A stretch of 64,000 bases of DNA. Origin: Zanthoxylum bungeanum (Eukaryota; Streptophyta; Magnoliopsida; Sapindales; Rutaceae). Where the stretch lies: contig SKCR01035594.1 of NCBI GenBank assembly GCA_019454045.1, positions 1 to 64,000 on the forward strand, given 5' to 3'. Under the pieces are notes generated by a model. It did not search any database and was not told the DNA's origin. It saw only the letters and a program-made list of their open reading frames with translations. The number at the start of each line of letters is the position of its first letter. The stretch's first letter is position 1. A program made the position numbers and the translations under genes. Shown here piece after piece: positions 402 through 63,362 of the stretch.

Positions 402-1449
402 GTCACATACGTCATCGGTGAATCTTTGGGAAGCGACCCATGAGATCCCCGGATATGTTGGCAGTCAAATCGGTCGTCGGACTATCCGAACACGTAAGTA
501 CCAAGTACTACGTTTTACCGATTTACAAGACAAGGTTGGCTTCTAGCAAGCACCATGCCTACCCAATTCTCCGAAAATATCCTTACAGGAATAAGGATCT
601 ATATCAAGCGTAGTATACCGTAGTATTGCGTATTTCTATCCAGTATCAGATGATCACATGCAAGGCCTGGGGCTGGTACAGTGTCTGCCCCGTACGATGC
701 ATATATCGGATAACGAGCAACTAGTCTCTTTAGAATCAGATAATCATGACCAAGTCATATTATCCCGACGGTTGCAACCTTACATAGAGAACGAGTTCTG
801 TATCCCTGCGTGATCATCAACTCCATATGACTGGAGTGACACTTCCGTCTTGACATCACACCCAACACACTACGATTCTCGATATACCCAGAATTGGCGT
901 ACACAGGTACCGGTTAAAGCCCTGGACGCCCTCAACCAAAGTATATTGATTGTCGTATGTATTAGCGGTGCAAGTCTCAGGTTAATACCAAATACACCTA
1001 CCCTGATTTCGGACTTCCATAGACACGTAGTCATACTACCAATGGAACTCCGAGGGGGTCTATCCAGAGCGAAGCTGTTTCCCGTACCATCGGAGAAACA
1101 CAACCTCCTATTACACTTGCATGAGTATCCTATACCTAAACATTTGAGAACTATGCCATTGTGCTCCCACAACACGCACAAGTGTAATACTAGTCTTTTA
1201 CGTATTCATCGATGTCCAATCTCGATAATACTCTGACTAGGGATATTTAATGATTCTGCCTTGGTGGATTGATACTGTCTCATATCATTCTCAATCCAGG
1301 CACAAATCATAAGGACCTCTCATCATTTATATATCTAGGTGATCTAATCACAAATGATAAGAGTGCAATCTCTTTGTCACATAGTTAATTTGTACAACAA
1401 CACCGTGTTCTGTACAAATAGTGACGCTATGGGTCATAATTGTCCAACA
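402..1449 (-). repeat. Element A 3' LTR, truncated
   Basis: Closely matches 14692-15737, the outer half of the complete right LTR, and ends in ...gtccaaca, the complement of the TGTTGGAC LTR start. The inner ~1.02 kb present in the complete copy is missing. The break at about 402 joins the LTR directly to a gypsy fragment. Confidence 0.85.
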
Positions 1450-1464
1450 ATCTCCCACTTGGCC
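1450..1464 (-). other. Element A polypurine tract
   Basis: Read on the minus strand this is GGCCAAGTGGGAGAT directly before the LTR start TGTTGG. It is the expected plus-strand primer site of an LTR retrotransposon. The same sequence flanks the LTRs of B (45318) and D (55921), which fixes the orientation of all three. Confidence 0.75.
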
Positions 1465-4230
1465 TATAGCCAGTCACTCGAGTGTCTAACACCCGAACTA
1501 TGTACGGTTTGGCTCAATTGCTGAGAAAGGAATTTCGTCAGTGGATTTTCATGATTATCGTCTGACGTGATTTATACGATCATCACATCGCCACGATGTA
1601 TGATCCGAACGAATCAGATGAATATCGAATTATCTGGATCATTGATAAGACCATTAATTCTTTAGCCTGTGTTCAAGCCTAGCTCAGCTGCTAGCAGAAT
1701 TACATCTAATCTAATTAGATTTATTTATGAACCCAGAAGGTTTCTATTGCTGCCTCATCTGCTGCAATAACCCGCGTTTGTTGTTTATACGGTAACAGAA
1801 TCTTGCTTGGATGATTCCAGCTCACTGTACCGTTATTCAAACTGTATAGTACCGTTTTTATCGGTTAGGAAACTTGCAGTAGTGATCCCAGTCACTTCAA
1901 GTTCTCCTTCTCCAGAATCCAGTGACTATCACTCAGATTCAGAGAGTTTTCTCGAAAGCCAAGCTTTCGCCGATAGTTATTTATTGGGAATATCATTTCC
2001 AAGAAATGACATATTTTATCATTATTTATTTAGGACATCCATTGTCAGTGCGCTCCCACTAACCTCCTTATATACACAAGAATCATTTTCGTTTTGAATT
2101 AAATCATAAACCATTATGATTACATCAAAACGATAATTCCAAGAACCTATGCTTGCTTCAATCCAAACATGGATCGAATAACCCGCAAACCTTGTTTGTT
2201 AGTGTTGGTACGACAAAACCGACAGGATGTTGAAAACATCCTCCAAAAGGTTTCCTTTTCAGGAAAGCGATTTTCCCGTTTAGCTGACATATTTCATCTA
2301 TGAAACATGCAGCATTAGCAAGCATTATCCAAATGGATTTACAATGGCAACAGTTAAAAGGTTGAATCGAAATCAACATAATGTTGATAACGATACCTTT
2401 CCGCTAAAAGCCTAGCTTTATACGTTGGTATGTTGCCATCCATGTATGTCTTCCTTGAAGACTTATAAGTACCATTAGGCACAATGCCTTGTGGTACATC
2501 AACTAGTATCCAAACTTGTTGATATACATGTAATCCATTTCGGACTCATGACACTTTGTCATGATAGGGAGTCGATACCTTGTATCACTTACTCATACGT
2601 AGTCAGTTGGTATACCTCAAAAGATAGACATCTTTACGAGGTGAGATCAGAAACCCATACCCCAGGTTGTTTTCTGACTCTCTCCGACTACGCGGTTCTT
2701 GTGTATTCGAAGATTAATGGTTTAGTTTCATCCTTGATGAACTATTTGTGTTCCATTAGGATTCGGTGCCTGGAATAGTATTACACCGATTTTCATCGAG
2801 TTTTACTATCCTCCCACTTACCACTGCATATCGGTATTCCCCTTAGAAAAATCGCATGGTGAGCAACAATCTAATTGTTCTGAGGTGAGATGTATAAGTA
2901 CAATACTTATGGTATCCCTAGGATAACCTATATTTGGTACTTATCCAATTTGGGTTTTAGTTTGGTATCATCCAAACATATGCCTAGCATACCCAAATTA
3001 TCAGGAATGTGAAACCCGGTTTCTTTCCCGTTCATATCTAATATGAAACCTGTCAAACAGATTTTAATGGAGCCTTATTCTAAATAAGTTCTGCACTGTT
3101 AAATGCTTATCCGTTGAAGAAATGGTAGCTCAGAGCGACTCATGATTAACCTTATCATGTCCAACAAAATTCGGTTACTCGGTTTCGGACACACCGCCAA
3201 TTTGACGTGTTCCGGGAGGAGTCCTCTTTTGAAAGAATACTATACTCTTTCAAGTATATTAGAAACTTATTGCTTAAGTATTTTCCATTACGGTCTTACC
3301 GTCACGGTATAATACTATAGCCGATCTATATGTCTATTTCGTGTCGAAACTATAAAAGTTTCCGATTTGTGTTCTTCAAAAGAAACACATAACCATAACA
3401 CGATGCCACATCCTTATAGGTCATGAAATATTCATATCCACTTCTAGCCTAGCTAGACATGGGCCCACTTGCTTCACTATGAACGAGGGCTAACAGGTCG
3501 GTGGCATTTACACTTTTACCAAGTAAATAGTGTTTTGGGCACTTTGCCCAATAAACTAGATTCATAGACTTTATTTGATTTGAATCAAAACAGTCCTAGT
3601 ACCCACTCTTCAAAAGTGTGGATATACGATTCTTGTTTAATTGTGTCCCAGACAACAATGCCACAATTAGTTTCTCCTGATCAAATCAGTTGAGCTATTA
3701 TTTGTCATTTTATATATTTGAGATTTTATTTATATTCAAAATATAAATTCTGTTATTCACATCTAATGTGTTTTATCTCAATATCATCTTTATATAATGA
3801 AACACTTTAGTGTTCTAAAATATAAAGGTATATCAGCAACAGATTATACACTGATATAAAGATAATGTATCTAGTCAACTAGTTACATTATAACAGTTTC
3901 CTAATTTAGGTACACACCCGAGGGTAGTTCCTAAACTTAGGTATCTACGGTTAAAACAGCGACTTACGTCCCGTTTCCAATCCGCAGATTAATCTCAACT
4001 GAGGTCAGTATCCTGTTCAAAACAGATTCTGAACATCAGTATATATATATATATATATTATGTATCACACTAAGTATTTAAAATCTAATTTCAATACTAG
4101 TAGTGAACATAATTTTACTAACATATTTGAAGACAGAGCCTTGCTCGTCTTCAATTCCTTCATGTCTGCTTTGTCCAAACGGTAGTCACGCTTCCGCGAT
4201 CCCGTTTGCCACATTTAGGCAGACATTTTG
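1465..4230 (-). pseudogene. Element A degenerate copia gag-pol
   Basis: No long frame survives, but family landmarks appear in the correct order on the minus strand. A decayed zinc-knuckle region lies at about 4180-4221. An integrase stretch near 3130-3230 resembles the usual copia motif ending in LLDMIRLIMSH. A reverse-transcriptase stretch lies at 2158-2379 and contains GFVVPTLTNKVC. Frames are broken by stops and indels throughout. The region cannot make a functional polyprotein. The coding part is much shorter than the roughly 4 kb normal for copia, so deletions are likely. Confidence 0.7.
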
Positions 4231-13668: not shown

Positions 13669-15737
13669 TGTTGGGTTTTCTAGGTCCCAATGATCGAATA
13701 CAAGCAATGAAATATGTGCGAATACTAATCGAGAAAGTTGCGGAATACTTACATCGATCGGTTGAGCAACGCGGAGGCCACGAAGACACCAAAACTGCTC
13801 ACTGCCTCACTACAATGTGCGCACACTGCTGCAGATTAGGTTTCTGTTTTGCGCCATTTGGAGGTCCTCGAACAAGCTCCAAGCTTCGTCGAACGATTCC
13901 CGGCTCATAGGTGAGCTTCCCTATCACCTTCGCATGTCTCTCGGAGTACTAGCTCTCTTGATTTTTGCCACAAAAACCAAGCACTTTGCTTCCCTCACTC
14001 ACTATTTTGGCGAACCAGAAAACAGAAAATGTTCAGCCCTTTGGGCGTGAGAAGATGAAGAGAATGGAGAGAGAGAGAGATAAAATGTGTGTTAATGAAT
14101 TGAAAAAAATGGTAAATGATTTCCAAAACCTATACACATATTTCCCTCCAAAAACAAAGCCATTAATGGCTTGTCAACCACACACATCAACTTCCCATCA
14201 ATCATGAATAGTGACTGGCGTCAATCACTCAAAGTGAAAGACATCCATCACTTGATTAACAGATGATGTGACGCTAGAAGCGACTAGCGATTTGACGCTT
14301 GATTTGATTTGCCGCACTCGAATTCGAAATATGAATGCGCTCGCAAATAATCTCGGGCTCGGGTTCGCTAATTCCAAATTAACGAACTTTCCGTTGCGAC
14401 GCAATTAAATCTAATTTAATTAAATAATCATGCCAAGCATAATTACTATTCACGTCGCTAACGAATTAATTCTAAATTAATTCGCTTGCCCGAATTAAAA
14501 TCTAATTTTAATTCCGCGTCGAAATCCAATTTCGTTTAATATATCGAATATATTAATTCTTCGATTAATTCCAAATTAATCGTTCTCTCTCTTTAAATGA
14601 TATTTTATCCCAGATAAAATATCTCCGCAATTAATCCCAGATCAATTTTCTCTCTCATCTTATTAATCCCAGATTAATTAAAAGTGCGAGTCATACGTCA
14701 TCGGTGAATCTTTGGGAAGCGACCCATGAGATCCCCGGATATGTTTGGCAGTCAAATCGGTCGTTGGACTATCCGAACATGTAAGTACCAAGTACTACGT
14801 TTTACCGATTTACAAGACAAGGTTGGCTTCTAGCAAAGCACCATGCCTACCCAATTCTCCGGAAATATCCTTACAGTAATAAGGATCTATATCAAGCGTA
14901 GTATACCGTAGTATTGCGTATTTCTATCCAGTATCAGATGATCACATGCAAGGCCTAAGGCTGGTACAGTGTCTGCCCCGTACGATGCATATATCGGATA
15001 ACGAGCAACTAGTCTCTTTAGAATCGGATAATCATGACCAAGTCATATTATCCTGACGGTTGCAACCTTATATAGAGAACGAGTTCTGTATCCCTGCGTG
15101 ATCATCAACTCCATATGACTGGAGTGACACTTCCGTCTTGACATCACACCCAACACACTACGATTCTCGATATACCCAAAATTGGCGTACACAGGTACTG
15201 GTTAAAGCCCTGGACGACCTCAACCAAAGTATATTGATTGTCGTATGTATTAGCGGTGCAAGTCTCAGGTTAAGACCAAATACACCTACCCTGATTTCGG
15301 ACTTCCATAGACACGTAGTCATACTACCAATGGAACTCCGAGGGGGTCTATCCAGAGCGAAGCTGTTTCCCGTACCATCGGAGAAACACAACCTCATATT
15401 ACACTTGCATGAGTGTCCTATACCCAAACATATGAGAACTATGCCATTGTGCTCCCACAACACGCACAAGTGTATTACTAGTCTTTTACGTATTCATCGA
15501 TGTCCAATCTCGATAATACTCTGACTAGGGATATTTAATGATTCTGCCTTGGTGGATTGATACTGTCTCATATCATTCTCAATCCAGGCACAAATCATAA
15601 GGACCTCTCATCATTTATATATCTAGGTGATCTAATCACAAATGATAAGAGTGCAATCTCTTTGTCACATAGTTAATTTGTACAACAACACCGTGTTCTG
15701 TACAAATAGTGAAGCTATGGGTCATAATTGTCCAACA
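13669..15737 (-). repeat. Element A 5' LTR (complete)
   Basis: 2069 bp. Minus-strand ends are TGTTGG...CCCAACA. The outer half matches 402-1449. The full length matches the LTRs of B (43387-45317), C (48660-50634) and D (53859-55920). A PBS lies directly inside it. Confidence 0.92.
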
Positions 15738-16810
15738 TATCTACCATTCGATTGATTTAAATCAATTATGTATGTATATATATATATATGTATGTATTTA
15801 TATATAGCTAGTCTTTTGTATGCTTGTGTGGTGTGTAATATCTAAACATTCTTAATATTTATGACTAAGAGTAGAAATTTAATGCTGCATCTAGAGCCTC
15901 TATACTAGAGGATGAAATATACTCTACACATTGACACTATTTTTGGACTGATCGAAGAGAATGAAATAAAGTGGAATGTAACTTAAAATTTTCAAAATTT
16001 ATTGTATGGTGGATGTTAGGAGATGGAATGAAGTGAAAGAGAATGAGATAAGTGTAACTTTCAAATTTTTATTTTTTTTATTTCATTTATGGAACTCGCT
16101 ACACATATATCAAATTATCATAATCTATTACAGTAAACATTTAGGAACATATTGATAAAATAGTTACCCATGGATTCTTTTGAAATAGTCTCTAAAATTC
16201 ATAGTTAAAATGTACAAAGATGCACCGTTGATCACATCCTTTAATTGTGAATGCAACATAGACAGAGAGAATCATTATTATACAAGAGTTTAGATTTAAT
16301 TATTATACCATATTTAGTTTCATCACTCAAACCCTTGATTGATTTAGTTTGTTTCTGGCTTGCATACTTTCTTGAATCTTGTCCAAACTTCCATATTTAA
16401 ACTCCCATAGAAGCCTAAAACTCTTTGGGTTAATTAATATGATCTGTCACACATAGACAGAGAGAATCATTGAGACCAATGGGATAAGGATGTGAACAGA
16501 AGCCTAATCAATGGCCATAAAATAATAAATTTATAAATAATAATATCATATTAAAATTTATAAATCTAACTCAATACAAAAACTAACTTGACAATAAGGG
16601 TATAGTTCAATCATTATATTTTAAATTCATTTATTCATTCATTTCAGTCGATGTGAGATATTTTCCTTAATACTAATTTCCTTACATTCGAACCAATATT
16701 TTACATGATCTATTCTATATCACGTCGATTGATAGTATGAATTCATTTATACAAGAGTCTAGCTCTAATACCCAAATTTAACGGTTCGCTAGGCTTTTTC
16801 AATAACCCAT
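15738..16810. other. AT-rich spacer, no gene
   Basis: Sequence between element A and the next recognisable repeat. It includes a TA-rich microsatellite at about 15770-15800. I see no open frame, element end or RNA gene. Confidence 0.6.
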
Positions 16811-43386: not shown

Positions 43387-45317
43387 TGTTGGGTTTTCTA
43401 GGTCAAACCAAGATCAAATTAAGCGATGAAAAGTGCGAATACAACAAAGTAAAGTACCGAAAATACTCACTTTGATCGGCTTTTGCGATGCGAAGAAAAC
43501 AAAAATTCAGCTCCAAGCTTTTCTTCTTGTTGGTTTCGGCCAAGGTCCCCTTTTGTGCTCCTCAAGCTCCAAGCTTTGTGAATGGATTCCATGCTCATGA
43601 ATGGGTTTCCCTGTCACCTTTGTATGACCTCTTTGAGTGCTAGCTCTTGAGATTTTGAAACAAAATCATGAAGAAAAATGAGCCCAAGGCTCACGGTATT
43701 TTGAGAGAAAATTGGCACCATTGCTTTGTGAGGGAGAAAGAGAGGAAGAAGATGAAGTTGTGTTTTTTTTTTGTGTTTTGATTTCAAAAATCAAAAACAA
43801 GATATACCAAAAATTTGGTAATTAAAACTTCCATCATTACCAACTTGGAGTGTATATAAAGCAACCACCAACTTCTATCAACATAAAGTAACAAGTTGAC
43901 TAGTTGATGTGACTTGTGGGCCCCACTTGATTCAAAATCTGAGTGGGCCCGCAAACACTCCCGGGCTCGGGTTCGCTAATTCCGAATTAACGAATTTTCT
44001 GTTGCGACGTAATTAAATCAAATTTAATTAAATAATTATGCCTAGCAAAATTACTATTCATGTCGCTAGCGAATTAATTCTAAATTAACTCGTTTGCCCG
44101 AATTAAAATCTAATTTTAATTCCGCGTCGAAATGTAATTTCATATAATATATCGAATATATTATTTTATCGATTAATTCTAAATTAATCGTTCTCTCTCT
44201 TTAAATAGTATTTTATCCCAGATAAAATATCTCTGTAATTAATCTCTCTCTAATAATTAAACCCAGATTAATTATATCTGAGTCATACATCATCGGTGAA
44301 TCTTCGGGAAGCGACCCATGAGATCCCCGGATATGTTGGCAGTAAATCCGATCATCGGACTATCCGAACACGTACATACCTAGTACTACGTTTTTTACCA
44401 ATTTACAAGACATGGTTGGCTTCTAGCAAAGCACCGTGCCTACCCAATTCTCCAGAAATATTCTTAAAGGAATATGTAATCTGTATCAGGCGTAATATAC
44501 GTAGTATTGCGTATTGCGATCCAGTATCGAATGTCACATGCAAGGCCTGGGGCTGGAATTGTGTCTGCCCCGTACGAAGCATATGTCGGATCTCTAGTAA
44601 CTAGTCTCTATAATCGGATAAACATGACCTAGTCATATTATCCCGATAGCTACAGCATACAAGAGTACCAGTTCCGTATCCTACGTGACCATCATCTCCA
44701 TATGACTGGAGTGATACATCCATCTCGACATTACACCCAATACATTACGATTCTCAATATACCCAGAAGAGGCATACACAGAACCTGTTAAAGCCCTGGA
44801 CGATAAAAACCAAAGTATATTGATTGTCGCAAGTATTAGCGATGTAAGTCTCAGGTTAAGACCAAATACACCTACCCTGATTCGGACTTCCATAGACACA
44901 TAGTCATACTACCAATGGAATTCCGAGGGGTCTATCCAAAGTGAAGTTGTTTCCGTACCATCGGTAAACACAACCTCCTATTACACTTGCATAAGTATCC
45001 AATACTTAAATATATGAGAACTATGGTGTTATGCTCTCACAACGCGCACAAGTGCAATACTTGTCTATTCCGCATTATCGATGTCTGATCTCGATAATAC
45101 TACGACTAGGGATATTTTAATGATTAAACCTTAGTGGATTAATACTGTCTTATATCTTATTGATCCGGAACTAATCATATGGACTTTTATCATTTATATA
45201 TCTCGATAATCCAATTAAAAATGATAAAAGAGCAATTTCATTTGTCAAATAGTTAATTTGTACAACAACACCATGTTCTGTACAAATAGTGATGTTATGG
45301 GTCATAATTGTCCAACA
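43387..45317 (-). repeat. Element B 3' LTR
   Basis: 1931 bp, tgttggg...gtccaaca; matches 13669-15737. A purine tract (complement of atctcgcacttggcc) follows at 45318. Confidence 0.9.
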
Positions 45318-48300
45318 ATCTCGCACTTGGCCTATAGCCAATCACTCAAGTGTCCTACACTTGAGCTATGTACGGTTCCCTCAAACTTCTGCTGAGAAAC
45401 AGCTTTCGTCAACGGACTTGCAATGTTATCATCTGATGCGATTTATTCGATCATCACATCGCCACGATGTATGATCCGACGAATCAGATGAAATATTTGA
45501 AGTATATATTTAGATCGTTGATGAGACCATTAATTCTTTAGCCTATGATGTAGCCTATCTCAGCTCCTAAAAGAACTACTCCTAATCTGATTAGGATTAT
45601 TATAGATCCAAATCGCTTCTATTGCTGCCTCAGCTGCAGCAATATTCTGCTTTTGTTGTTTATTCGGTAACATTATCTTGCTCGGAATATTTCCAGCTTA
45701 ATGTTCCGTTATTCAAACTATATAGTACCGTTATTACGACTTATAGTCGTTGTTGTCGGTTTGAAAACTTGCAGCAGTGAACCTAGTCACTTCAAGTTCT
45801 CCTTCTCCATAGCATAAGAAAACATCCTTAGTTTGTCTAAGATACTTAAGGATGTTCAACATCAATCTAGTGACTATCACTTGGATTGGCCTGATTGTGA
45901 CTCCATATGCTCAAAGCATATGAGACATCAGTCGCGTACATATATTTCAATGTACGAGTTCTCGGAGAGCTCCAACAACTTTTAGATCTATCTCAGTAGA
46001 TCCTTATTCCTAGAATAAAGGTTGTCTCTCCCAAGTATTCTATGGAGAGTTTTCATGAAAGCCAAGCTTTCACCGATTGTATTATGGGAATTTCATTTCC
46101 AAGAAATTATATATCATCATTATTTAGGATATTCACTGTCAGTGCGCTCCCACTAATCTCCTAATATACACAAGAATCATTTTCATTTTGAATTAAATCA
46201 TATACCATGATGATTACATCAAAATGATAGTTCCAAGAACACAATGCTTGCTTCAATCCATAAATGGATCGATTTAACTTGCAAACCTTGTTTGCTTGTT
46301 TTGGTACGACAAAACCGTCAGGATGTTATAAACATCCTCCAAAATTTTATGTTTAAGGAAAATGATTTTGACGTTCATCTGCCATATTTCATAAATGAAA
46401 CATGCAGCATTAGCAAGCATTATCCAAATGGATTTAACCATGGCAACGAGTAAAAGGTTTCATTTTAATCGACACAATGTTGATAACGATACCTTTTCGC
46501 TACAAGCCTAGCTTTGTACGTTGGTTTGTTGCCATCCATGTATGTCTTCCTTGAAGACTTATATAGTACCAAGAGGCACAATGCCTTTCGGTACATCAAC
46601 CAGTGTCCAAACTTGGTTGGTATACATGGAATCCATTTCGGACATCATGGCACTTTTCCATAATATGGAGTCGATACCTTGTATCACTTCCTCATACGTA
46701 TTCAGTTCGTCTTCCTCAATAAGATAGACATCTTCAAGAGGTGAGATCAGAAACCCATACCTACCAGGTTATTTTCTGACTCTCTTCGACTAACACGGTT
46801 CTTGTGTATTTGAAGATTATGGTACAGTTTCATCCCTGATGAACTGTTTGTGTTCCATTAAGTAATCGGTGCATGTAACAGTATTACTCTGATTTTCATC
46901 GAATTTTACTTTCCTCCCATTTACCACTGCATATAGGTATTCCTCTTAGGAAAACCGTATGGTGAGCAACAATTACATTGTTCTCTTGTGAGTTATATAA
47001 GTACTATACTTTTGGTTACCCTAGGATAACCTACAAATTAGGCAGTTATCCGATTTGGGTTCTAGTTTGGTATCATCCAAACAAATGCCTAGCATTCCCA
47101 AATCTTCAGGAATGAGAAACCCGGTTTCTTTCCTGTTCATATCTAATATGAAGTCTGTCAAACAGATTTTTATGGAACCTTATTCAAAATAAGTTTTACA
47201 CTGTTTAATGCGTATCCCTAGAAAGAAAATGGTAGCTCAGAGTGACTCATGATTAACCTTATCATGTCTAACAAAATTTGATTTCTCCGTTCGGACACAC
47301 CGTCAGATTGAGGTGTTTCAGGAAGAGTCCATATTGAAAGAATACTATACTCTTTCAAGTAATCGATAAACTTATTGCTTAAGTATTTTCCATCATAGTA
47401 CAATCGTGATGTTTTAATACTTTTGCCGATCTATTTTTATACTTCGAGTCGAAACTTTCTGAAAGTTTCTGATTTGTGTTTCTAAAGAAACACATAACCG
47501 TAATGCGATACCACATTCGTGAAGGTTACGAAGTATTCATATCCACCTCTAGCCTAGCTAGACATGGGCCCACTTACGTAACTATGAATGAGGGCTAACA
47601 GATCAGTGGCACTTGCACTTTTACCAAGTAAAAACTATTTTAGGCACTTTGCCCAATAAACTAGATTCGTAGACATCATTTGAATAGAATCAAATCCGTC
47701 ATAGTACCCATTCTTTGAAAGTGTGGATATACGAGTCTTGTTTAATGTGTCCCAGACAACAATGCCACAAATAAATCTCATCTGATTAATTATGTTTGAG
47801 CTATTGTTTGTCATGTTATACGTTTGAGATTTATTTATATTCAAAATATAAATACTGTTATTCACATCTAATGTGTTTATCTCAATATCATCTTTATAAA
47901 ATAAAATATTTTAGCGTTCTAGAATATAAAGGTATACCCGCAACGGGTTAAACTAGATATAGATGTAATGTTTCTAGTCAAACTAGGTACATCATAACAG
48001 TTTCCTAATTCAAGTACACTCCCGAAGGGTAGTTCCTAAACTTAGGTTTCTACAGTTAAAATAGCGACTCTCGTCCCGTTTCCGACTCGTAGGTTGATCT
48101 TAACTGAAGTCAGTCTCCTGCTTATCAGCAGATTCTACACATCAGTACATATTTATGTACCATATTTAGTATCTAAAATCTAATTTTAATACTAGTAGTG
48201 AACATGTTTATGACAGACATACTTGAAGTCGGAGCCTTGCACCGCCTTCACTTCCTTCATGTATGCCTTGTCCATACGGCAGTCATGCTTCCAGTGACCC

Positions 48301-48659: not shown

Positions 48660-50634
48660 TGTTGGACAATTATGACCCATAGCATCACTATTTGTACAGA
48701 TCATGGTGTTGTTGTACAAATTAACTATGTGACAAAGGAAATTGCTCTTTTATCATTTGTAATTAGATTACCGAGATGTATAAATGATAAAAGGTCATTA
48801 TGATTAGTTCCGGATTGAGATGATATGAGACAGTATCAATCCAAGAAGGTTTAATCATTAAATATCCCTAGTCGTAGTATTATCGAAATTGGACATCGAT
48901 AATACTGAATAGACTAGTATTACACTTATGCACGTTGTGGGAGCATAACGGCATAGTTCTCATATATTTTGGTATAGGATACTCATGCAAGTGTAATATG
49001 AAGTTGTGTTTACCGATGGTACGGAAACAGCTTCTCTCTGGATAGACCCCTAGGAATTCCATTGGTAGTATGACTATGAGTCTATGGAAATCTGAATCAG
49101 GGTAGGTGTATTTGGTCTTAACCTGACACTTGCACCGCTAATAATTGCGACAATTAATATACTTCGGTTTTGGTCATCCAGGGCTTTAACAGGTTCTGTG
49201 TATGCCTCTTCTGGTTATATTGAGAATCGTAGTGTATTGGGTGTGATGTCAAGATGGAAGTATCACTCCAGTCATAGTGGAGATGATGATCACGTAGGAT
49301 ACGGAACTGGTTCTCTTAAGTACTGCAGTCATCAGGATATTATGACTAGGTCATGTATATCCGATTATAGAGACTAGTTACCAGAGATCCGATATGTGCT
49401 TCATACGGGGCAGACACAATTCCAGCCCCAGGCCTAGCATGTGACATCCCATATTGTATCGTAATACGCAATACTACATATACTACGCCTGATAAAGATC
49501 ACATATTCCTTTAAGAATATTTCTGGAGAATTGGGTAGGCACGGTGCTTTGCTAGAAGCCAACCATGTCTTGTAAATCGGTAAAAACATAGTACTAGGTA
49601 TGTACGTGTTCGGATAGTCTGACGACCGGATTTACTGCCAACATATCTTGGGATCTCATAGGTCGCTTCCCGAAGATTCACCGATGACGTATGACTCGCA
49701 CTTTATTAATCTGGGATTAATTATAAAAGAGAGAAAATTAATCTATGATTAATTGCGGAGATATTTTATCTGGGATAAAATATTATTTAAAGAGAGAGAA
49801 CGATTAATTTGGAATTAGTCGATAAAATAATATATTCGATATATTAAACGAAATTGGATTTCGACGCAGAATTAAAATTAGATTTTAATTCGGGCAAACG
49901 AGTTAATTTAGAATTAATTCGCTAGCGACGTGAATAGTAATTTTGCTAGGCATAATTATTTAATTAAATTTGATTTAATTACATCGCAACGGAAAATTCG
50001 TTAATTCGGAATTAGGGAACCCGAGCCCGGGAGTGTTTGCGGGCCCACTCGTATTTCGAATCAAGTGGAGCCCACAAGTCACATCAAGCGTCAAATCACT
50101 AGTCAACTTTATCACTTTATTGTGATGGAAGTTGTTGGATGATGCTTGAGTGTGAAACACTCAAATGTGATGGTTGAAAGACATTTACCATTTAATTATT
50201 TTTTGGTATTTGACTTTCAAATTTTTTGCATTAGATTACACAACACAAAAACACATTTCTCTCCTCTCTCTCTCCATATTCGGCCTAGGGCCAAATTTCT
50301 CTCTTTGTTTCTCCATTGCCGAGAGATACAAGAAGCACACTAGGGGAATTTTGTTACAATTTTCTCCAATGCTAGCACATAAAGAGTCATCCAAATGTGA
50401 TAGGGAAACAAACCCTTGAGCATGGAATCCACATCCAAGCTTGGAGCTTGACCGAAACTTGGAGATCCAAAATGGAGGCCATTGCCGAGAGCTTCAAGGA
50501 TGGAAGTAAGAAATTTTTGTTATTCCTCGCATCGCAAAAGCCGATCAATGTAAGTATGATTCTGCCATACTTCTTTTTTATTCACATAATTTCAATGCTT
50601 GAATCGATCTTGGGACTATAGTAGAAACCCAACA
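48660..50634 (+). repeat. Element C 5' LTR
   Basis: 1975 bp, TGTTGGAC...GAAACCCAACA, the family LTR in plus orientation. Confidence 0.92.
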
Positions 50635-53858: not shown

Positions 53859-55920
53859 TGTTGGGTTTCAATCATGTCCCAAGATCAAAGATTAAGCATA
53901 AAACGAGTTGAATACATATCAAAGGAGGTGCGGAATAACTCACATTGATCGGTAGAGATGCAACGAAGATGAAGAACGAACTGCTCTCCCTTGCTTGGCA
54001 GTGGGCTGCGCAAATGGTGGACTGCAAGGTGGTGGGTGGATCTCCTCCTCCAAGAATCGGCCATTGATGTCCTTTGAAGCTCCAAGCTTCAACAATGGAT
54101 TCCTTGCTCACGCATACACTGCCCTAATACCTTGGTATGCCTCCTAGAGTGTGCTAGCACTTGGATCTTGCAACAAAATCATTTATTTTCTCCCTTGCTG
54201 CATTCGGTCTTGAACCAGAAAAGAAAGAAGGCAGCAGCCCCTTGGGCGTGAGGAAGAAGAGAGGAAAGAGAGGAGGGAAAGGTTTCCAAAACCTAATACC
54301 GTAAAAAAAATTAGTGAAAAAGAAAATATGTAAAAGGTTTATATATTTCCAAAATAAATAAATCATTTACCTTTTTTCAATTTCAAAAATCAAAACATTA
54401 AATGCTTTAATTCTTCTCACATCAACTCACATCAATCTCTCAAATGTCACATCACTCAAAGTGACATGCGATTTGACGCTTGATGTGACTAATGATTTGA
54501 CGCTTGATTTGACTTGCGTGCCACACTCGAATTTGAAATGCGAATGCGCTCGCAAACAATCACGGGCTCGGGTACGCTAATTCCAAATTAACGAATTTTC
54601 TGTTGCGTCGTAATTAAATGATTACGCCTAGCGAAATCACTATTCACGTCGCTAACGAATTAATTCTAAATTAATTCGTTCGCCCGAATTAAAATCTAAT
54701 TTTAATTCCGCGTCGAAATCCAATTTCGTATAATATATCAATATATTATTTTATCGATTAATTCCAAATTAATCGTTCTCTCTTTAATTGATATTTTATC
54801 CCAGATAAAACATCTTCGTAATTAATCCCAGATTAATTTTCTCTCTCATTAAATTAATCCCAGATTAATTAAAGTGCGAGTCATACGTCATCGGTGAATC
54901 TTTGGGAAGCGACCCATGAGATCTCCGGATATGTTGGCAGTAAATCGGGTCGTCGGACTATCCGAACACGTAAGTACCTCGTACTACGTTTACACCGATT
55001 CACAAGACAAAGTTGGCCTTTAGCAAAGCGCCATGCCTACCCAATTCTCCAGAAACATGCTTACAGGAATAAGCGATATATATCAGGCGTAGTATATGTG
55101 GTATTGCGTATTTCGATCCAGTATCGGATGATCACGTGCTAGGCCTGGGGCTGGAATCGTGTCTGCCCCGTACGAAGCACATGTCGGATCTCTAGTAACT
55201 AGTCTCTATATCGGATAAACATGACCTTGTCATTTTATCCCGATGATTGCAGTACTTAAGAGAACCAATACCGTATCCTACGTGACCATCAACTCCATAT
55301 GACTGGAGTGACACTTCTGTCTTGACATCACACCCAACACACTACGATTCTCAATATACCCAGTATTGGCGTACACAGAACCTGTTAAAGCCCTGAACGA
55401 CCTTAACCAAAGTATATTGATTGTCGCAAGTAGTAGCGGTGTAAGTCTCAGGTTAAGACCAAATACACCTACCCTGATTTCGGGCTTCCATGGACACGTA
55501 GTCATACTACCAATGGAATTCCGAAGGGGTCTATCCAGAGCGAAGCTGTTTCCCATACCATCGGTGAAACACAACCTCCTATTACACTTGCATGAGTATC
55601 TTATACCCAAATATACGAGAACTATGCCGTTGAGCCCTCACAACATGCACAAGTGCAATACTAGTCTTTTACGTATGTATCGATGTCCAATCTCGATAAT
55701 ACTCTGACTAGGGATGTTTAATGATTTATCCTTCGTGGACCGATACTGTCTCATATCATTCTCAGTCCAGGAACAAATCATAGGGACCTCCTATCATTTA
55801 TATATCTAGGTGATCTAATCACAAATGATAAGAGTGCAATCTCTTTGTCACATAGTTAATTTGTACAACAACACTATGGTCTGTACAAATAGTGACGCTA
55901 TGGGTCATAATTGTCCAACA
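53859..55920 (-). repeat. Element D 3' LTR
   Basis: tgttggg...gtccaaca; matches the A, B and C LTRs and is closest in length to the right LTR of A. Confidence 0.92.
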
Positions 55921-56213
55921 ATCTCCCACTTGGCCTATAGCCAGTCACTCGAGTGTCTTCCACCCGAACTATGTACGGTTCGCTCAAATTTCTGAGAAAG
56001 GTTTTCGTCAGCGGATTTTCATGATTATCGTCTGATGCGATTTATACGATCATCACATCGCCACGATGTATGATCCGTACGTATCAGATGAATATTGAAG
56101 TATTTATCTGGATCGTTGATGAGACCATTATTCTTTAGCATGTGTTGAAGCCTAGCTCAGATTGCTATGAGAACTATATCTAATCTAATTAGATTTTATC
56201 GACCCTAGAAGGC
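53859..56213 (-). mobile_element. Copia element D (3' LTR and 0.3 kb of body), inserted in C, cut by E
   Basis: Minus-strand member of the A family. 3' LTR 53859-55920 (2062 bp), PPT at 55921, then about 290 bp of pol-end sequence matching 1450-1739. Element E starts at 56214. The left 5-bp duplication would be ttacg (53854-53858). Confidence 0.85.
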
Positions 56214-58343
56214 TGATGAGCGGAAAATATATCAATATTTACCGCCCCTTTAACTTAATATTTTGTTTAGTTTCTCGGGTTTGATGAACGTTTTGATGTG
56301 TTTTAGTTTATTTTGCAGATAAAATAATATCGGGTCTCAATGAAATCATTTAGGATGAAATATGGGTCAAATAAGGGCAATTATTGGACTTGATATTTTA
56401 ATTTTGGAGATTGGAAACTTGAAAGGGCGTTTTGACGAAGTGCAGTTTTGGAAATTCCAGTTTTGCGCATCTGTCGTATTTTGGGCATAACTTTTTACTC
56501 AGATATCGGATTGAGCTGATTCAAGTTCCAGATTAAAGAAGACTCAAGGATCTACAACTTTGAAAGACAAAATAATTTCGAATTCTGAAGATTTCATGCC
56601 CGAAATTGATGAACCATCCAGAAGTGTGTAGTGTGTAATTATTAAAGTCACTTTCAATCATTTTCAAAGCAAAAAATAAATTAATAAATAAATAATAAAA
56701 ATTATCAAATCATCACCAAACATGATAAGAGATTAGTGGAGCAATTAATAATGGATTTGGTGGAGCAATTAGTGGAGCAATTAATAATTGATTTGGTGGA
56801 TGATTTGATGGAGGCAAAATTTTGCCTATAAATACCAAGCCATTTCATTTGTAAAATTCATACTTTCTTCTAAGGAATTCCTTAAGAATACTAAGAAGAT
56901 TATATCTTGTTTGTTTATTTACAGCTTTCAGTAATTAATTTTCATTTTCGCACTTTTTTTTCTTTACTTTTAAGTTTTTACTTTCCGCAATTTACTTATA
57001 CGCACAATACTTTTCTTTATTTAATTTTCAGTTTTTACTTTTCAGTAATGAGGAGGTAACCCCCCCTTTGCTGGGGTAAAGGTAAAACTTTTATTACTAA
57101 TATTTAGATTAATCTCCCTTAATTATAATATATAAACTAGTTAAAACCTGACTTAACGAGGATACCGCCATATTGGTCGGTTGGTAATTATTTAAATTGG
57201 TTTTAACCTGACTAAACTGGATACCGCCTGATTGGTCGGTTGGTAATTAATTATTAATTTGACTTAATCTGGATACCGCCTATATGGCTGGTTGGTAATT
57301 ATCATGCAAAGTTAATATATTATATTAAGGGATATATCTAAAATAGAAGTAATAAAAGTAGATCCTTTTACCTCAGCATTTTCTTTTATTGTAATTTTAC
57401 TTTATTTACTTTTTAGGCAATTTACTTTCAGCATTTACTTTTCAGCAATTTACTTTCAGCATTTACTTTCAGCATTTAATTTTCAGTATTTAATTCAGCA
57501 TTTACTTTCAGCATTTACTTTCAGCATTTAATTTTCAGTATTTAATTTTCAGTATTTTACTTTATGTCTTTTATTTTATTTAAGTTTTTTTTACTACCCG
57601 TAAATATGTGTTGTAACTAAATTAGTTATCTGGGGTTGTGATGAAATCCAATATCACCGGTTTATAAGGGGTTAAATTATAGCTTGGGTAATATAAAGAT
57701 TTATTTATTGAGTCTTAAACTTAATGCTTTTTCATTAACTGGCCATTAATAAAATTGATGTGGTAAATCTAAAATAAACTTGACAAAGGAATTTTAGGTT
57801 TCAGCCTTAGACTTAATAGCCCACGATCTTCCTTGAGGATAGATAACCCTTTAATAGATTTCCTTACAGGATAGGAATATACCTGTCGGGCGGGGGTAGC
57901 CATAATTGGAACTTAAACTTAATGAATCCAGATAATTTGGTTGACATAGACATATGGTTCAATTGGGTTAAACTGGGTATTTGCGTCTGACCATCGACAG
58001 AGGCTTTTGCATAATTTAGTGTTCCAGGTTAGTAAACCGATTATTACACAAACATAAAATAACCACTTCATCTTTAAAATGATATTGGAAGAAATCACAA
58101 CCCTAGATAGTTTTTAATATTGAATTTTCTTAAAACCTACTATCGAACAATTTTATTTACTTGTTTTTTTTTAAATTTAGAATCGTCACCATTTCAAATC
58201 AATCAAACAACCTGTTAGATACTAGTAATCATTTGACTTCATAAAATTAATAGATTAGATATTAAGTCCTCGTGGGATCGATATTTTTATACTACTTGAA
58301 CGATACGTGCGCTTGCGTTATACGTGTGTGTTTACGCCGGTCA
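56214..58343 (+). repeat. Element E 5' LTR
   Basis: About 2130 bp, TGATGAGCGG...CCGGTCA. Contains three ~50-bp repeats with ggataccgcc and ggttggtaatt (57142-57303) and a short repeat tttactttcagca many times (57410-57550). The 3' end is set by the CA seven bases before the PBS. Confidence 0.82.
56827..56834 (+). promoter_or_regulatory. Candidate TATA box of element E
   Basis: tataaata in ttttgcctataaataccaag, within the LTR. If active it would transcribe the element, including the LOG ORF, through about 5.4 kb of sequence. Confidence 0.5.
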
Positions 58344-58349
58344 AGTTTT

Positions 58350-58368
58350 TGGCGCCGTTGCCGGGGAC
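58350..58368 (+). other. Element E primer-binding site
   Basis: tggcgccgttgccggggac, the form used by Athila-type elements and complementary to plant tRNA-Asp (family knowledge). Confidence 0.9.
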
Positions 58369-58562: not shown

Positions 58563-60224
58563 ATGAGACGAACCAGAAGCTTTGAACTTCAACCGCTTGA
58601 CCCAGAAATTGAAAGAACCATCAGACAGTTGAGAAGGAAAGGCGAGAAGGCCAAGAAGCTTTAGTCAACATGGAACCTGAACCGTTGGAGGTTGCACCAC
58701 CAATTCCCATTCGAGACAGAACCATTCCGGTGGTTGACAGACTCATTTCCTGTATTGTACTTCCTCCCTTACCAGCAAATGCGTGTGACATCAAAACGTG
58801 CATTCAGATGATTCAGCAGTCAGTTCAATTCGGGGGGAATGCAACTGAAGATCCTAATTCCCACATCAGCAACTTCCTTAAATTTTGCGGCACTTTTAAT
58901 TACAACCGAGAAGCGGAAGAAGCAATGAGACTACGAGTTTTTCCATACTCCTTGAAGGACATAGCTAAAGCTTGGCTACATTCACTACCAGCAGGTTCCA
59001 TCACAACTTGGAACACTTTAGCCACCAAATTTCTTGCAAAGTACTTTCCACCAGCCAGAACCGGAAAGCTGAGGAATGACATCACATCCTTTGTACAACA
59101 AGATTCAGAATCCCTCAGTGAAGCTTGGGAAATGTACAAAGATTTGCTCCGGAAATGTCCTCACCATGAGATTCCAAAATGGCTTCAAGTCCAAACATTC
59201 TATAATGGACTTTCTGGAATAATGAGAACCACAATCGATGCTGCTGTTGGAGGAGCTTTGATGGCAAAAAGGAGAAGATCAAGCCTGGGACCTAATCGAA
59301 GAAATGGCCAACAATAATTCTTTGTGGCCAACAGAAAGGAGCATGATCCAAAGAATTGCAGGAATTTATGAAGTTGGAGCAAACACAGCAGTGAATACCA
59401 TGCTGGATCAGATATGCAAATGTCTAGAAACACTTAGCACTCAAGTTGTGAACATCGCTGGAACCACAAGTTCACCATATGGAAGAGCACCAGAACCAAA
59501 CCAACATGAAGAGACGGTGAATTATGTCAACAATTTCAACGGACAGGGGAACAATCCATATTCCAACACCTACAACCCAGGGTGGAGGAATCATCCTAAT
59601 TTTTCATGGAGCAATAATTCAGGCCAACAGCAAAACTATCCATCACCTGAATTCCAGCAACAGAACAAAATCTAGGAGCAAGCAAATGAATCAGGAATAA
59701 CAGAAGTGTTGACCCACTTGAAAAAGATAGAAGCAAAACACGACTCTCATGCAGCAAGATATGATGCTATGTTTCAATCCCAAGCAGCATTAATTCAAAG
59801 TCAATCTACTTCTATTAAAGCACTGGAGAATCAAATGGGACAACTGGCAAATGCTCAGAGTTACAGACCGCCAGATACCCTTCCTAGCAACACAGAGCCA
59901 AATCCAATGAACATGGGGAAGGAGCAATGTCATGCCATCATGTTAAAAAGTGGTACTGAAATCAACAAAGATGTTGGAGCCAAAACAACTGCTGAGGAAG
60001 TTCCAAAAGAAACAAAGCAACAGATGGAGGAAAAAGAAGCAAAGGAAAAAGAACAGATCACTCCACCTCCACCTTTTTCTCAACGTCTTCAGAAGAACAA
60101 ATTGGACAAGCAGTTTTCTCGGTTCCTGGAAATCTTCAAAAAGCTGCATATCAACATTCCATTTGCAGAAGCGTTGGAACAAATGCCCACCTATGCCAAA
60201 TTCATGAAAGATATTCTTTCATGA
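58563..60224 (+). pseudogene. Element E gag (Athila type), broken
   Basis: Start at ATG 58563 (MRRTRSFELQPLDPEIERT). A frame shift follows near 58655 and the frame resumes at 58670. The gag core contains RVFPYSLKDIAKAWLHSLP, TTWNTLATKFLAKYFPPA and LLRKCPHHEIPKW (to about 59265). A one-base shift near 59270 moves the frame to the next segment (MANNNSLWPTERSM, 59304). A stop at 59673 is followed in frame by a Gln-rich and Lys/Glu-rich part with ALENQMGQLA and PPPPFSQRL. A stop at 60222 separates it from the protease. Athila gag motifs are unmistakable; the protein cannot be made whole. Confidence 0.88.
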
Positions 60225-60890
60225 AAGCGGAGATTGGGAGATTACGAGACAGTAGCATTATCAGAAGAATGCAGTGCTATCATTCAGAGGAAACTTCCCC
60301 CGAAGTTGAAAGATCCTGGCAGTTTCACTGTTCCTTGCGTCATAGGAGAACATAACTTTGGTAAGGCTCTGTGTGATTTAGGTGCGAGTGTTAACTTGAA
60401 GCCTTTTTCTATTTTCAGGAAATTACAGATTGGAGAAACAATGCCAACTTCAGTCTCACTACAACTTGCTGATAGAACGCTCGTATTTCCGAGAGGTGTA
60501 GTTGAGGATGTGCTGGTCAAGGTTGACAAATTCATTTTCCCAGCAGATTTTATTGTCCTTGATATGGAGGAAGACGCAGACGTGCCAATCATCCTCGGGA
60601 GACCATTCTTGGCTACAGGTCGAACCATTATTGATGTACAAAAAGGAGAATTAACCATGAGGGTACAAGACCAAGAAGTAACATTCAATGTTTTCAAAGC
60701 CATGAATTTCCCAGATGATGAAAAGAAGGAGGAATGTTTCAGACTCGATGTGATACACAGTACCATTCAGAACTCCAATGCAATGCAAAGTTCTACTGAC
60801 AAACTTAAAACATGTCAATTGCCTGTGGAGCCTAAAGATAAAGCGTCTTTTGTACTGAAGGAGCCAATTCTTGCACTACAAGCAACAGAA
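60225..60890 (+). pseudogene. Element E aspartic protease
   Basis: Open from just after the 60222 stop. ECSAIIQRKLPPKLKDPGSF leads to the active site DLGAS (60374-60388) and the flap/core with VPIILGRPFLATGRTIID. It is in the same frame as the preceding gag segment, so the original gag-pro was one polyprotein. The frame runs on into integrase-tail sequence instead of RT. Confidence 0.85.
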
Positions 60891-61251
60891 GAGAAAAAGT
60901 TCCACCAGCTCAACGAATTGGAGGAATTTCACAATCAGCCTTTTGATGATGCCAAATTGTACAAAGAAAAGGGCAAGAAGAAGACATGATGAGAAGTTAG
61001 TGCGCATACAACTAGAACCAGGGCAGAAGGTACTGTTAAACAAATCAAGGGTGAAATTCTTCCCATGGAAGCCAAAATCACGGTGGTCAGGTCCATTTGT
61101 GATCACCAAAATTTTACCAAATAGAGCCGTTGAGATACATGATCTTGACGGTAACAAAACATTCAAGGTTAAAAACAAACGTGTCAAGCACTACTGGGGA
61201 GAATCATTTGAGCGACAAAAAGAAAGTGTCACACTTTCAGATCCAGCTTAA
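60891..61251 (+). pseudogene. Element E integrase C-terminal tail fused to protease region
   Basis: LNELEEF and DAKLYKEK (to 60986) are motifs that in Athila elements come just before the integrase tail. A +1 shift then gives HDEKLV, GQKVLLNKSRVKFFPWKPKS and RWSGPFVITKI, ending at 61251. About 3 kb of RT, RNase H and integrase core are missing between protease and here. The join lies near 60850-60900. Confidence 0.85.
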
Positions 61252-61389: not shown

Positions 61390-61938
61390 ATGGAAGAAGC
61401 TCTTGCAAATCTTCACAAGCAATTTCCTTCTCTCCCTCCAAAATATCTGATGAAAGTATACAAAGCTCGCTTGGAACGGATGAGGTTATTGACAATCCAT
61501 TGTATTCCTAATGATATTCATTGGGTAATTGAAGCACGAGTCCGATTGGCAGGTGAGTCTTCTGACTCTTTTATTTCACATATGCCTGGTTTTGGAAGAA
61601 GCACATATGCAAAGAAACGTAGAGCTAAGCAAATGGGTGTTTGTTTCAAATGTGCACGATTTAATTGCAACACTCGTTGTCGTTCTTTAGGAATGGTGTC
61701 TGATAATCGCGAAAACAAAATTAAATTCATTAGGGATGGCTTGAGTAAGGAGTCTGTAGATGAAATATCTTCAACTCTTGAGACGCATCCCAGTGGATAT
61801 GTTCATATAGCCATTCGCAAATTACATACACAATTTCAAAAAGAAAGACAATTGTTAAGTCTCGGGAATCTGACTCAAAAAGACCATGTTTGCCAATTTA
61901 TAAGAAAATTGGATGGGAAGCTTGTCCCTGACGCATAG
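61390..61938 (+). CDS. Uncharacterised 182-residue protein (ORF-X), intact
   Basis: I do not recognise this family. Start taken at ATG 61390 (MEEALANLHKQFPSLPPKYL); an upstream in-frame ATG at 61342 lies before the acceptor-like CAG. The protein is basic, has no signal peptide or membrane segment, and has a Cys cluster C-x2-C-x4-C-x3-C (CFKCARFNCNTRC, about residues 94-106) that could bind zinc. After it comes RSLGMVSDNRENKIKFIRDG, then a helical C-terminal half. It is open with no stop in an element whose gag-pro is broken, and it lies where some Athila elements have an env-like ORF, but nothing here looks like an envelope. It may be host-derived, like the neighbouring LOG ORF. Confidence 0.6.
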   Translation: MEEALANLHKQFPSLPPKYLMKVYKARLERMRLLTIHCIPNDIHWVIEARVRLAGESSDSFISHMPGFGRSTYAKKRRAKQMGVCFKCARFNCNTRCRSLGMVSDNRENKIKFIRDGLSKESVDEISSTLETHPSGYVHIAIRKLHTQFQKERQLLSLGNLTQKDHVCQFIRKLDGKLVPDA

Positions 61939-62117: not shown

Positions 62118-62120
62118 CAG
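62118..62120 (+). promoter_or_regulatory. Possible splice acceptor, upstream of LOG ORF (proximal)
   Basis: actcacattttttcag, 70 bases before the LOG ATG. With the similar site before ORF-X it suggests subgenomic spliced RNAs. Inference only. Confidence 0.35.
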
Positions 62121-62190: not shown

Positions 62191-62844
62191 ATGGAAGCCA
62201 CTTCAAGAAGACGAGTTGAAAACATCTGCGTGTTTTGCGGTAGTAGTGTTGGTACTAAGCCACAATACATAGAAGCAGCACAAGAATTGGGTCGAGTCTT
62301 AGCTGCAAGGAATATGCACTTAATATATGGCGGAGGAAATCTTGGACTTATGGGGATCGTTTCAAAGGCTGTACAGGAAGGAGGCAGTCACATTTTGGGA
62401 ATCATCCCAAAACCCTTGGCAGAGGCAAATATTATTGGATCATCAAACGGAGAGGAACTAATCGTGCCAGGTATGTCTGAACGACTGGTAGAAATGATTA
62501 ACTGTGTTGATGCTTTTATCGCTTTGCCAGGTGGCTTGGGTACATTGGAGGAAATTTTTATAGTTCTATCTTGGGCGAACCTGAACATACACCAGAAACC
62601 GCTTGGATTCCTCAATGTTGATGGATTTTATGATTTTCTTTGTGTGTTTCTTGATGATGCTCGGAGAAATGGGTTCGTGTCAAAACCTTTGAAAGAACTC
62701 CTCTTTACTGCCAGAACTGCTCCGGATCTAATAGACCAACTCATAGCCTATGAACCACAAGTTGACCCTATCCTTTCAAAGATAAATTGGTCCGAGGACG
62801 ATCGTGGTAAGAGGCGTCGAATTAATCTGGATCTTAACCTTTAA
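62191..62844 (+). CDS. LOG-like: LONELY GUY-type cytokinin riboside 5'-monophosphate phosphoribohydrolase, intronless
   Basis: 217 residues, start at ATG 62191 (an upstream in-frame run is Lys-only and lacks ATG). LOG enzymes release active cytokinin bases from their nucleotides in one step. Seen: ICVFCGSS (12-19), YGGGNLGLMG (46-55), GIIPK (70-74), the MxxRxxxM segment with R98, and PGGLGTLEE (113-121) with E121; R98 and E121 are the known catalytic positions. Departures: K99 of the usual MxxRKxxM is Leu, and the Tyr of PGGYGT is Leu. The C-terminus KRRRINLDLNL combines a basic patch with an EAR-like LDLNL. Length equals normal LOG proteins. Plant LOG genes normally have several introns and this has none, so it is probably a cDNA-derived copy carried by element E. 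Activity is uncertain because of K99L. Confidence 0.88.
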   Translation: MEATSRRRVENICVFCGSSVGTKPQYIEAAQELGRVLAARNMHLIYGGGNLGLMGIVSKAVQEGGSHILGIIPKPLAEANIIGSSNGEELIVPGMSERLVEMINCVDAFIALPGGLGTLEEIFIVLSWANLNIHQKPLGFLNVDGFYDFLCVFLDDARRNGFVSKPLKELLFTARTAPDLIDQLIAYEPQVDPILSKINWSEDDRGKRRRINLDLNL

Positions 62845-63362
62845 TTTCCTGTCGATTTTCAGTGAACCAGGTATTATCTTCTAAACTCTTCTTCTACTGT
62901 TTAAGACATTGGGGACAATGTCTCATTTAGGTTTGAGGGAGGAAATTAGTTGATTAATATCTTGTTTTTAGTTGTATGTTGTTTTTTTTATTTTTGTTCC
63001 AAAAATTTTCGAAAAATTTGAAAAATTTTCAAAAATTACAAAAATATTTTGTGTTTTTTATGTTTTTGTTTTGACTAAAAAGGTGAAATTGGTAAGAGAT
63101 AGCCGAGTAAGGAGTTTCCACTCCTGAGACGTATCTCAAACCTATTTTGAAACAAGTTAATTTTTGTTTATTTTATTTTGAATTATTTAATTTGTAAATT
63201 CTCCATAAAATTGACTAAAATGGATCTTTTTATGCTCAGTTGGCAGGTATTATCAACATACATAGTAACATACGGACATGAGCTAAAATTGAAAAGTTTG
63301 TAATATTCAGTGCTCTAGTTTAATTGGAAGAAACATCTCAAAAAGCAATGGAGTAAAAAAAA
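62845..63362 (+). other. Element E 3' non-coding region
   Basis: No gene. cattggggacaatgtctcat (62909) with gaggga shortly after resembles the 3' region of Athila/Tat elements, supporting that E continues past the LOG ORF. AT-rich stretch with many aaaatttt words at 62998-63050. Confidence 0.5.

Follow-up and report, generated by a model that had tools for sequence, protein, structure and literature searches.

An intact reading frame of the LOG family lies inside a complete LTR retrotransposon. The explanation that accounts best for it, to which we give slightly better than even chances, is that it represents an accessory gene of an Athila-type family which would have been remodelled into a nuclear protein that binds TOPLESS and damps the host. 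The accessory position of the gene, its constraint, the loss of a residue pair from the active site, the gain of a C-terminal tail and the presence of a virus-like neighbour are shown by comparison of sequences. A nuclear accessory protein is likely rather than a plain cytokinin-maker, and the element may use its LOG-derived protein to handle the host rather than to make hormone.

The element and its LOG-family protein

The contig is 103,497 bases long and belongs to an assembly of 3.96 Gb; the window analysed here covers its positions 1 to 64,000. The LTR element around the LOG frame is complete, with two LTRs (K2P of 0.0168 between them) and a matching AAGGC target duplication. A preliminary description of this DNA had placed the frame as cargo inside an Athila-like retrotransposon and had proposed a search for a 3' LTR starting with tgatgagcgg and for a second aaggc. 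The cargo position between two LTRs with an AAGGC duplication is confirmed, and both predicted parts are present directly beyond the window. The components are the following (window positions unless stated otherwise):

56209..56213, no strand: 5' copy of the AAGGC target-site duplication (its 3' counterpart directly follows contig position 66385, beyond the window)
56214..58343, + strand: 5' LTR, 2130 bp, TGATGAGCGG...GGTCA
58350..58367, + strand: primer binding site (PBS) TGGCGCCGTTGCCGGGGA; the same string occurs in six class B copies, with one base changed in L010
58670..60224, + strand: gag, broken (ORFs 58670-59317, 59304-59675 and 59706-60224)
60234..60772, + strand: protease-like region (RVP_2 E 0.013, under the cut-off)
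60773..60877, + strand: stretch in which RT, RNase H and most of the integrase are deleted
60878..61251, + strand: C-terminal tail of the integrase, frameshifted, similar to the integrase ORF of L013
61390..61938, + strand: NABP ORF (carlavirus-type nucleic-acid-binding / cysteine-rich protein), 182 aa, with Carla_C4 and Viral_NABP matches
62119..62120, + strand: AG of a splice-acceptor-like site TTTTTTCAG upstream of LOG
62191..62844, + strand: LOG-family ORF, 217 aa, from profile searches and structural relatives
62485..62487, + strand: codon 99, CTG (Leu), in place of the adenine-binding Lys of LOGs
62560..62562, + strand: codon 124, ATA (Ile), in place of the Glu that partners Lys99 in LOGs
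62809..62841, + strand: C-terminal tail KRRRINLDLNL, basic cluster and LxLxL (EAR-type)
62905..62942, + strand: non-coding 38-mer directly 3' of LOG, which marks copies whatever the state of LOG
contig 64183-66385, beyond the window: 3' LTR, 2203 bp, partner of the 5' LTR

From 5' to 3' the focal element consists of an LTR, the PBS, a broken gag-protease region, the pol deletion, the integrase tail, the NABP ORF, LOG, a non-coding stretch, what we take to be a polypurine tract, and the second LTR. The PBS is presumably of the tRNA-Asp type usual in Athila/Tat, and it is from PBS, LTR and gene order that we take the element to be an Athila. Pfam identifies the gag domain PF03732 on 58670-59314 (E 2.6e-22), and the protease-like region contains what we take to be a DLGAS motif. 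The LTR, PBS, gag and integrase tail all lie on the plus strand. The protease of the preliminary description is a weak match below the cut-off. Instead of a gag shifted three times, gag-pro has one frameshift and two in-frame stops, and a further frameshift is located at the integrase tail, as judged from the ORF frames. Similarity to the pol-bearing sister copy L013 ends at about 60772 and restarts at about 60878.

Splice-acceptor-like sites similar to that of LOG are also found upstream of NABP (61372) and gag (58546). Their AG is kept in 22 of 24 copies for LOG, 13 of 13 for NABP and 10 of 10 for gag. Dinucleotides of these stretches are on average conserved at 0.81, 0.89 and 0.95, respectively, and above this background the acceptor-like AGs stand out only slightly. 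Five related stretches of another repeat are spread over the window (406-1740, 14265-15746, 43904-45609, 48660-50105 and 54470-56212); the last one ends directly 5' of the target site of the element and the other four are 85–89% identical to it.

The LOG ORF encodes 217 amino acids with neither stop nor intron and carries YGGGNLGLMG, R98 and PGGLGTLEE, in agreement with the preliminary description; the residues of the PGGxGTxxE motif are P113, G114, G115, G117, T118 and E121, in addition to R98. Membership of the family is given by Pfam (PF03641, E 1.3e-33; PF18306, E 1.6e-17) and TIGR00730 (E 2.9e-47), together with a LOG-type Rossmann fold; the stricter NCBIfam equivalog NF058542 scored 110.4 against a cut-off of 300, so the protein falls outside this narrower model. 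The closest solved relative is At2g37210 (2a33, E 1.9e-59), and the predicted model (mean pLDDT 87.5) fits chain B of this LOG3 structure with a TMt of 0.95 and 50% identity.

The active site of LOGs is formed by an Arg-Lys pair and PGGxGTxxE (PMC5379747). In CgLOGII, activity was lost on exchange of Arg155, Lys156, Thr175 or Glu178 for alanine; Lys156 contributes to adenine binding and forms a pair with Glu181 (PMC5379747). This mutational evidence on the Lys comes from a type-II bacterial LOG and was mapped to residues 98, 99, 118, 121 and 124 by our own alignment. The focal protein has Arg98, Leu99, Thr118, Glu121 and Ile124, and the Lys-Glu pair of type-I LOGs (the Lys156 type of CgLOGII) is missing. 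The former label of a cytokinin-activating enzyme is therefore not upheld, the Lys being replaced by Leu99 and its partner Glu124 by Ile, a Lys-to-Ala exchange having been inactive in CgLOGII (PMC5379747). Among 99 relatives (the proteins of 200–260 residues out of 120 among the matches listed), K99 and E124 are kept in seven, always together, as against 120 of 120 host-type LOGs, a control set of the LOGs nearest to AtLOG3 and hence of AtLOG3 relatives only. Since Arg98, Thr118 and Glu121 are mostly retained (89, 96 and 96 of the 99), some enzymatic activity is possible. Arg98 is exchanged for Gln in eight relatives of the alignment set; a subclade of P0008, P0011, P0012 and P0015 combines this exchange with the tail end LDIDLNR, so that neither the catalytic Arg nor a strict LxLxL is left. 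The comparison with host LOGs that had been proposed was made with one host LOG gene read in the same genome (two near-identical loci), which is split by introns into several exons, keeps K99 and E124 and lacks the basic and LxLxL tail.

The focal protein ends in KRRRINLDLNL. Plant EAR repression motifs, which recruit TOPLESS, have this build of a basic cluster and LxLxL; the basic cluster is, by eye, what we take to be a nuclear signal. A strict LxLxL within the last 14 residues occurs in 79 of the 99 relatives, down to about 50% identity with the focal protein, and in none of the 120 host-type LOGs; it is absent from the other 20 relatives and is accompanied by the basic cluster in 78 of the 79. 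With a pLDDT below 50 at residues 203–217 the tail is predicted to be disordered, and in consensus, conservation and predicted disorder it corresponds to an EAR-type motif, albeit a short one.

Sister copies, loss of pol and constraint

The search for other copies with the same LOG, likewise proposed before, revealed many of them. The 38-base marker has 404 exact matches in the genome (reversed control 0), and the best 150 own-genome LOG matches show 93–100% identity over residues 1 or 2 to 216 or 217, with an internal stop in four; these 150 were scored out of 70,556 first-look candidates, so that the true number is at least 150 and the sample favours well-kept copies.

Twenty sister copies with long flanks, taken from the 150 best LOG matches and mostly located on large contigs, were inspected. 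LOG precedes the same 3' stretch in all of them, and wherever the integrase tail is present (13 of the 20) LOG follows downstream (13 of 13). LOG sits where the family has its accessory genes, 3' of the integrase tail. Ten of the 20 have the focal-type arrangement across the pol deletion. At the deletion site L013 and L016 contain a 3.19 kb pol stretch, 95% alike between them, and in L013 the order is RT, RNase H, integrase, NABP (Pfam) and then LOG. RT, RNase H and integrase in gag-pol order are thus found through a sister copy, the focal copy being pol-deleted. L022 has only two pieces of pol, and L018 lacks both the integrase tail and NABP. L013 contains pol as well as LOG, and the deletion is a separate one that lies 5' of the integrase tail. 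The supposed replacement of pol by LOG is therefore rejected; pol was lost independently, and pol-bearing copies have LOG too.

In six further copies (L010, L014, L017, L020, L023 and L026) no match to the focal gag, protease, integrase tail or NABP was obtained; they consist of LTRs, PBS and a gag-like reading frame, followed by LOG. This frame is open over 369 (L023), 417 (L020) and 442 (L026) residues and broken in L010, L014 and L017. In all six it has what we take, by eye, to be a zinc-knuckle-like motif, and it ends in the recurring stretch KVARALNETKLFLPLYRWKRPFKSN.

Pol is lost in derivatives which are still spreading. The K2P between the LTRs, measured in five of the 20 copies, is 0.0044 (L014), 0.0051 (L018), 0.0075 (L027), 0.0158 (L011) and 0.0236 (L015), and these low values indicate that some insertions are recent. 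LOG diverges by 0.043, 0.043 and 0.044 within the classes of copies and by 0.041–0.044 between them; for the stretch after LOG the values are 0.050–0.076 within and 0.059–0.068 between classes. Over the final 700 bases of the LTR, divergence between pol-deleted copies and those of the gag-only type is 0.155, compared with 0.065 and 0.120 within the two classes. Over the 20 inspected copies LOG is without class structure, while the LTR ends are structured between these two classes. This pattern of divergence would fit an exchange of the LOG end between subfamilies by template switching, the samples being small.

The intact focal frame had been interpreted as either young or under selection. Since only two of 30 marker-picked copies (the first 30 marker places among the matches listed) are intact, the intactness of one copy proves nothing by itself and is no argument for either; the focal LOG is among the better-kept copies. 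LOG sequence, in part or whole, adjoins the marker in 30 of 30, and NABP is present in eight of the first 20 and intact in one. Selection becomes visible when changes are sorted by frequency, with neutral expectations derived from the same mutation spectrum. Among singletons of the 30 copies the missense/synonymous ratio is 0.67 of expectation with 16 stops against 11.1 expected, among doubletons 0.54 with 5 stops against 6.3, and among changes in at least three copies 0.38 with no stop against 7.8.

Pairwise pN/pS of LOG is 0.364 in the 30 marker-picked copies, three times the value in LOG-selected copies. The latter, 26 after three duplicate loci were dropped, were picked by protein similarity and hence are biased to intact ones; here pN/pS is 0.117 for LOG (n=26), 0.208 for gag (n=11), 0.222 for protease (n=14) and 0.331 for NABP (n=13). 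By class, LOG has 0.114 in pol-deleted copies (n=11), 0.133 in those without focal-type gag/pol (n=6) and 0.176 in L013, L016 and L022 (n=3). The last 11 residues are identical in 20 of the 26; five variants retain LxLxL and one reads NMDLNL, so LxLxL is kept in 25 of 26 although the tail is predicted to be disordered. Among marker-picked copies it is kept in 16 of 20, with LxLxL in the intact L038 and LDFNL in the intact L047. We read the data as a LOG that would be constrained in lineages which propagate, with copies decaying after insertion.

The NABP neighbour, relatives in other plants and the proposed role

Between integrase and LOG lies the NABP ORF (61390-61938), which the preliminary description had missed. 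It matches Carla_C4 (E 7.1e-7, 29.6 bits, cut-off 20.9) and Viral_NABP (E 1.2e-6, 29.2 bits, cut-off 23), and of 41 sequences scanned at E 0.001, 34 match Viral_NABP and 33 Carla_C4. At E 0.001 it has 256 relatives, many from plants; among the best 120 of these are proteins assigned by name to Xanthoceras, Populus, Acer, Rhamnella and Orobanche as well as one cluster of 566 sequences. Viral NABP relatives are described as silencing suppressors, and the protein of Chrysanthemum virus B as a transcription factor causing hyperplasia (PMC12172455). Against the PDB the NABP profile gave three weak matches (best E 0.14), and the predicted model is of low confidence (mean pLDDT 63.1). When viral contigs were scanned with the single LOG, the single NABP and the NABP profile, no relative was detected; the LOG profile yielded 24 distant matches with 26–50% identity in the best segment. 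P0142 (NABP) and P0105 (LOG) are each listed with a longest contig of 4511 bases, and this common size and source suggests that the NABP-LOG pair travels together elsewhere.

In a tree calculated without the tail columns from 33 of the 99 relatives and 18 host-type LOGs, thinned by identity, the retrotransposon-type LOG relatives form one clade (98/97) apart from the sampled host LOGs, whose sampling is narrow (AtLOG3 relatives, AtLOG8 and one own gene). At its base are P0031 and P0067 with K99 and E124 but no LxLxL, followed by P0038 with K99, E124 and LxLxL; the remaining 31 tree rows are without K99 and E124 (97/84). A second tree with 45 of the 99 relatives gave the same branching order, which points to one acquisition after which the tail was probably gained first and the pair lost second. 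Members named from Populus, Xanthoceras, Reevesia and Diplodiscus belong to this clade, which argues against the former idea of a recent single uptake by the focal element. From the intronless ORFs, the many cluster members and the 4511-base contig of P0105 and P0142 we infer that the relatives in other plants probably lie within retrotransposons as well. The Xanthoceras chains P0009 and P0017 have two LOG-like units each, which may be annotation joins of neighbouring elements.

The following course of events would unite these data. A processed plant LOG transcript was, most likely, taken up once and long ago into the position between integrase and 3' LTR, behind the carlavirus-like NABP gene. 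The protein would first have gained the basic cluster and the LxLxL tail and then have lost the Lys99-Glu124 pair, the fold being kept and Arg98, Thr118 and Glu121 mostly so. It would enter the nucleus and bind TOPLESS-type co-repressors through its tail, and their recruitment may lower host transcription, be it of defence, of silencing or of the cytokinin response, to the element's benefit. The LOG fold may act as a scaffold that binds nucleotides and hydrolyses them weakly or in a changed manner, and NABP may act alongside, perhaps by suppressing silencing. The 3' ORFs could be expressed through the putative splice acceptors ahead of gag, NABP and LOG. New insertions would decay, with LOG being kept in the transposing lineages including the pol-less ones. 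A bolder version, which we put forward tentatively and consider somewhat doubtful, is that retrotransposons have made a nuclear regulator out of a host hormone enzyme, a LOG fold minus its adenine-binding pair and plus a TOPLESS-recruiting tail, in tandem with a virus-type protein resembling silencing suppressors. This would be a two-gene cassette for host manipulation across several plant families, whose LOG is kept even by polymerase-less elements.

The main rival to a remodelled protein is an active LOG with a changed pocket. Such an enzyme would still activate cytokinin, and local cytokinin would keep host cells dividing or meristematic so that insertions are inherited, the tail adding nuclear location only. 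The predicted model does fit LOG structures (2a33 chain B, TMt 0.95), Arg98, Thr118 and Glu121 are kept as counted above, and the ORF is constrained; however, 92 of the 99 relatives have neither Lys99 nor Glu124, the Lys-to-Ala exchange abolished the activity of CgLOGII (PMC5379747) and some members have lost even Arg98 to Gln (eight in the alignment set), and we regard this possibility as rather unlikely.

It is improbable to a still higher degree that LOG is a transduced host cDNA hitch-hiking at high copy number and useless to the element. The changes shared by at least three copies comprise no stops and few missense exchanges, pN/pS is low in two pol-less classes of LOG-selected copies (0.114, n=11; 0.133, n=6), and the same clade exists in several plants, although most sampled copies are broken, with 2 of 30 intact, and transduced host fragments are known in plant LTR elements (PMC7264820). 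That LOG is a normal host gene which happens to adjoin or underlie the element is hardly conceivable. A host LOG gene does exist in the same genome, but it has introns, K99, E124 and no such tail, while the LOG considered here is situated between both LTRs of one element with target duplication and precedes the same 3' stretch in 20 of 20 inspected sister copies; a host gene beside the element is ruled out by the 3' LTR and the duplication.

Relation to known systems

That plant LTR elements can carry accessory genes is no recent finding, and for most of these genes a function has yet to be assigned. The one described here has a recognisable enzyme ancestor and an order of changes, tail and then pair, that can be read from a tree. 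A candidate partner in TOPLESS, a virus-like neighbour with viral relatives of known function and hundreds of copies in one genome offer further handles, and the way in which plant retrotransposons act on their hosts becomes directly testable. The annotation 'cytokinin riboside 5'-monophosphate phosphoribohydrolase LOGL10', used for example in Populus, may name transposon-type proteins with a different activity.

LOG-family domains in Gypsy elements were already known; a search of the open-licence literature found no report of the tail, the paired loss in the active site, the NABP partner or the contrast between constrained lineages and decaying copies. Ty3/Gypsy elements with a YgdH/LOG domain exist in Citrus sinensis, C. 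clementina and Populus trichocarpa, credited to Steinbauerova et al. 2011 (PMC9289625), and like the focal element they are Gypsy-type LTR elements encoding a LOG-family domain. Tail, active-site change, NABP neighbour and selection are not mentioned in the part of that source cited here (PMC9289625). Populus P0041 and P0043 (P0039-like in the tree) belong to the clade of the focal ORF and are presumably identical with the published elements.

The plant type-I LOGs AtLOG3 (2a33) and AtLOG8 (1ydh) share the fold, PGGxGTxxE, Arg98 and Glu121 with the focal protein, which differs from them by Leu99, Ile124, Ser96, the absence of introns, the basic and LxLxL tail and its carriage by a retrotransposon. 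Athila-type elements with an env-like ORF (PMC7264820) have LTR, PBS, gag-pol order and sense accessory ORFs between pol and 3' LTR in common with the focal element; its accessory ORFs, however, are NABP and LOG, and the focal copy showed no env-like ORF. Both families of carlavirus cysteine-rich/nucleic-acid-binding proteins (PF01623 and PF05515) are matched over cut-off by 61390-61938, but this NABP is located in an LTR retrotransposon and its residues before 38 and after 121 are outside the best matches. Finally, orchid Gypsy elements with an m6A RNA demethylase domain share the trait of an added host-like enzyme domain which could act on the host; they differ in the enzyme and in their RT, which is placed beside Ogre within Tat (PMC9289625).
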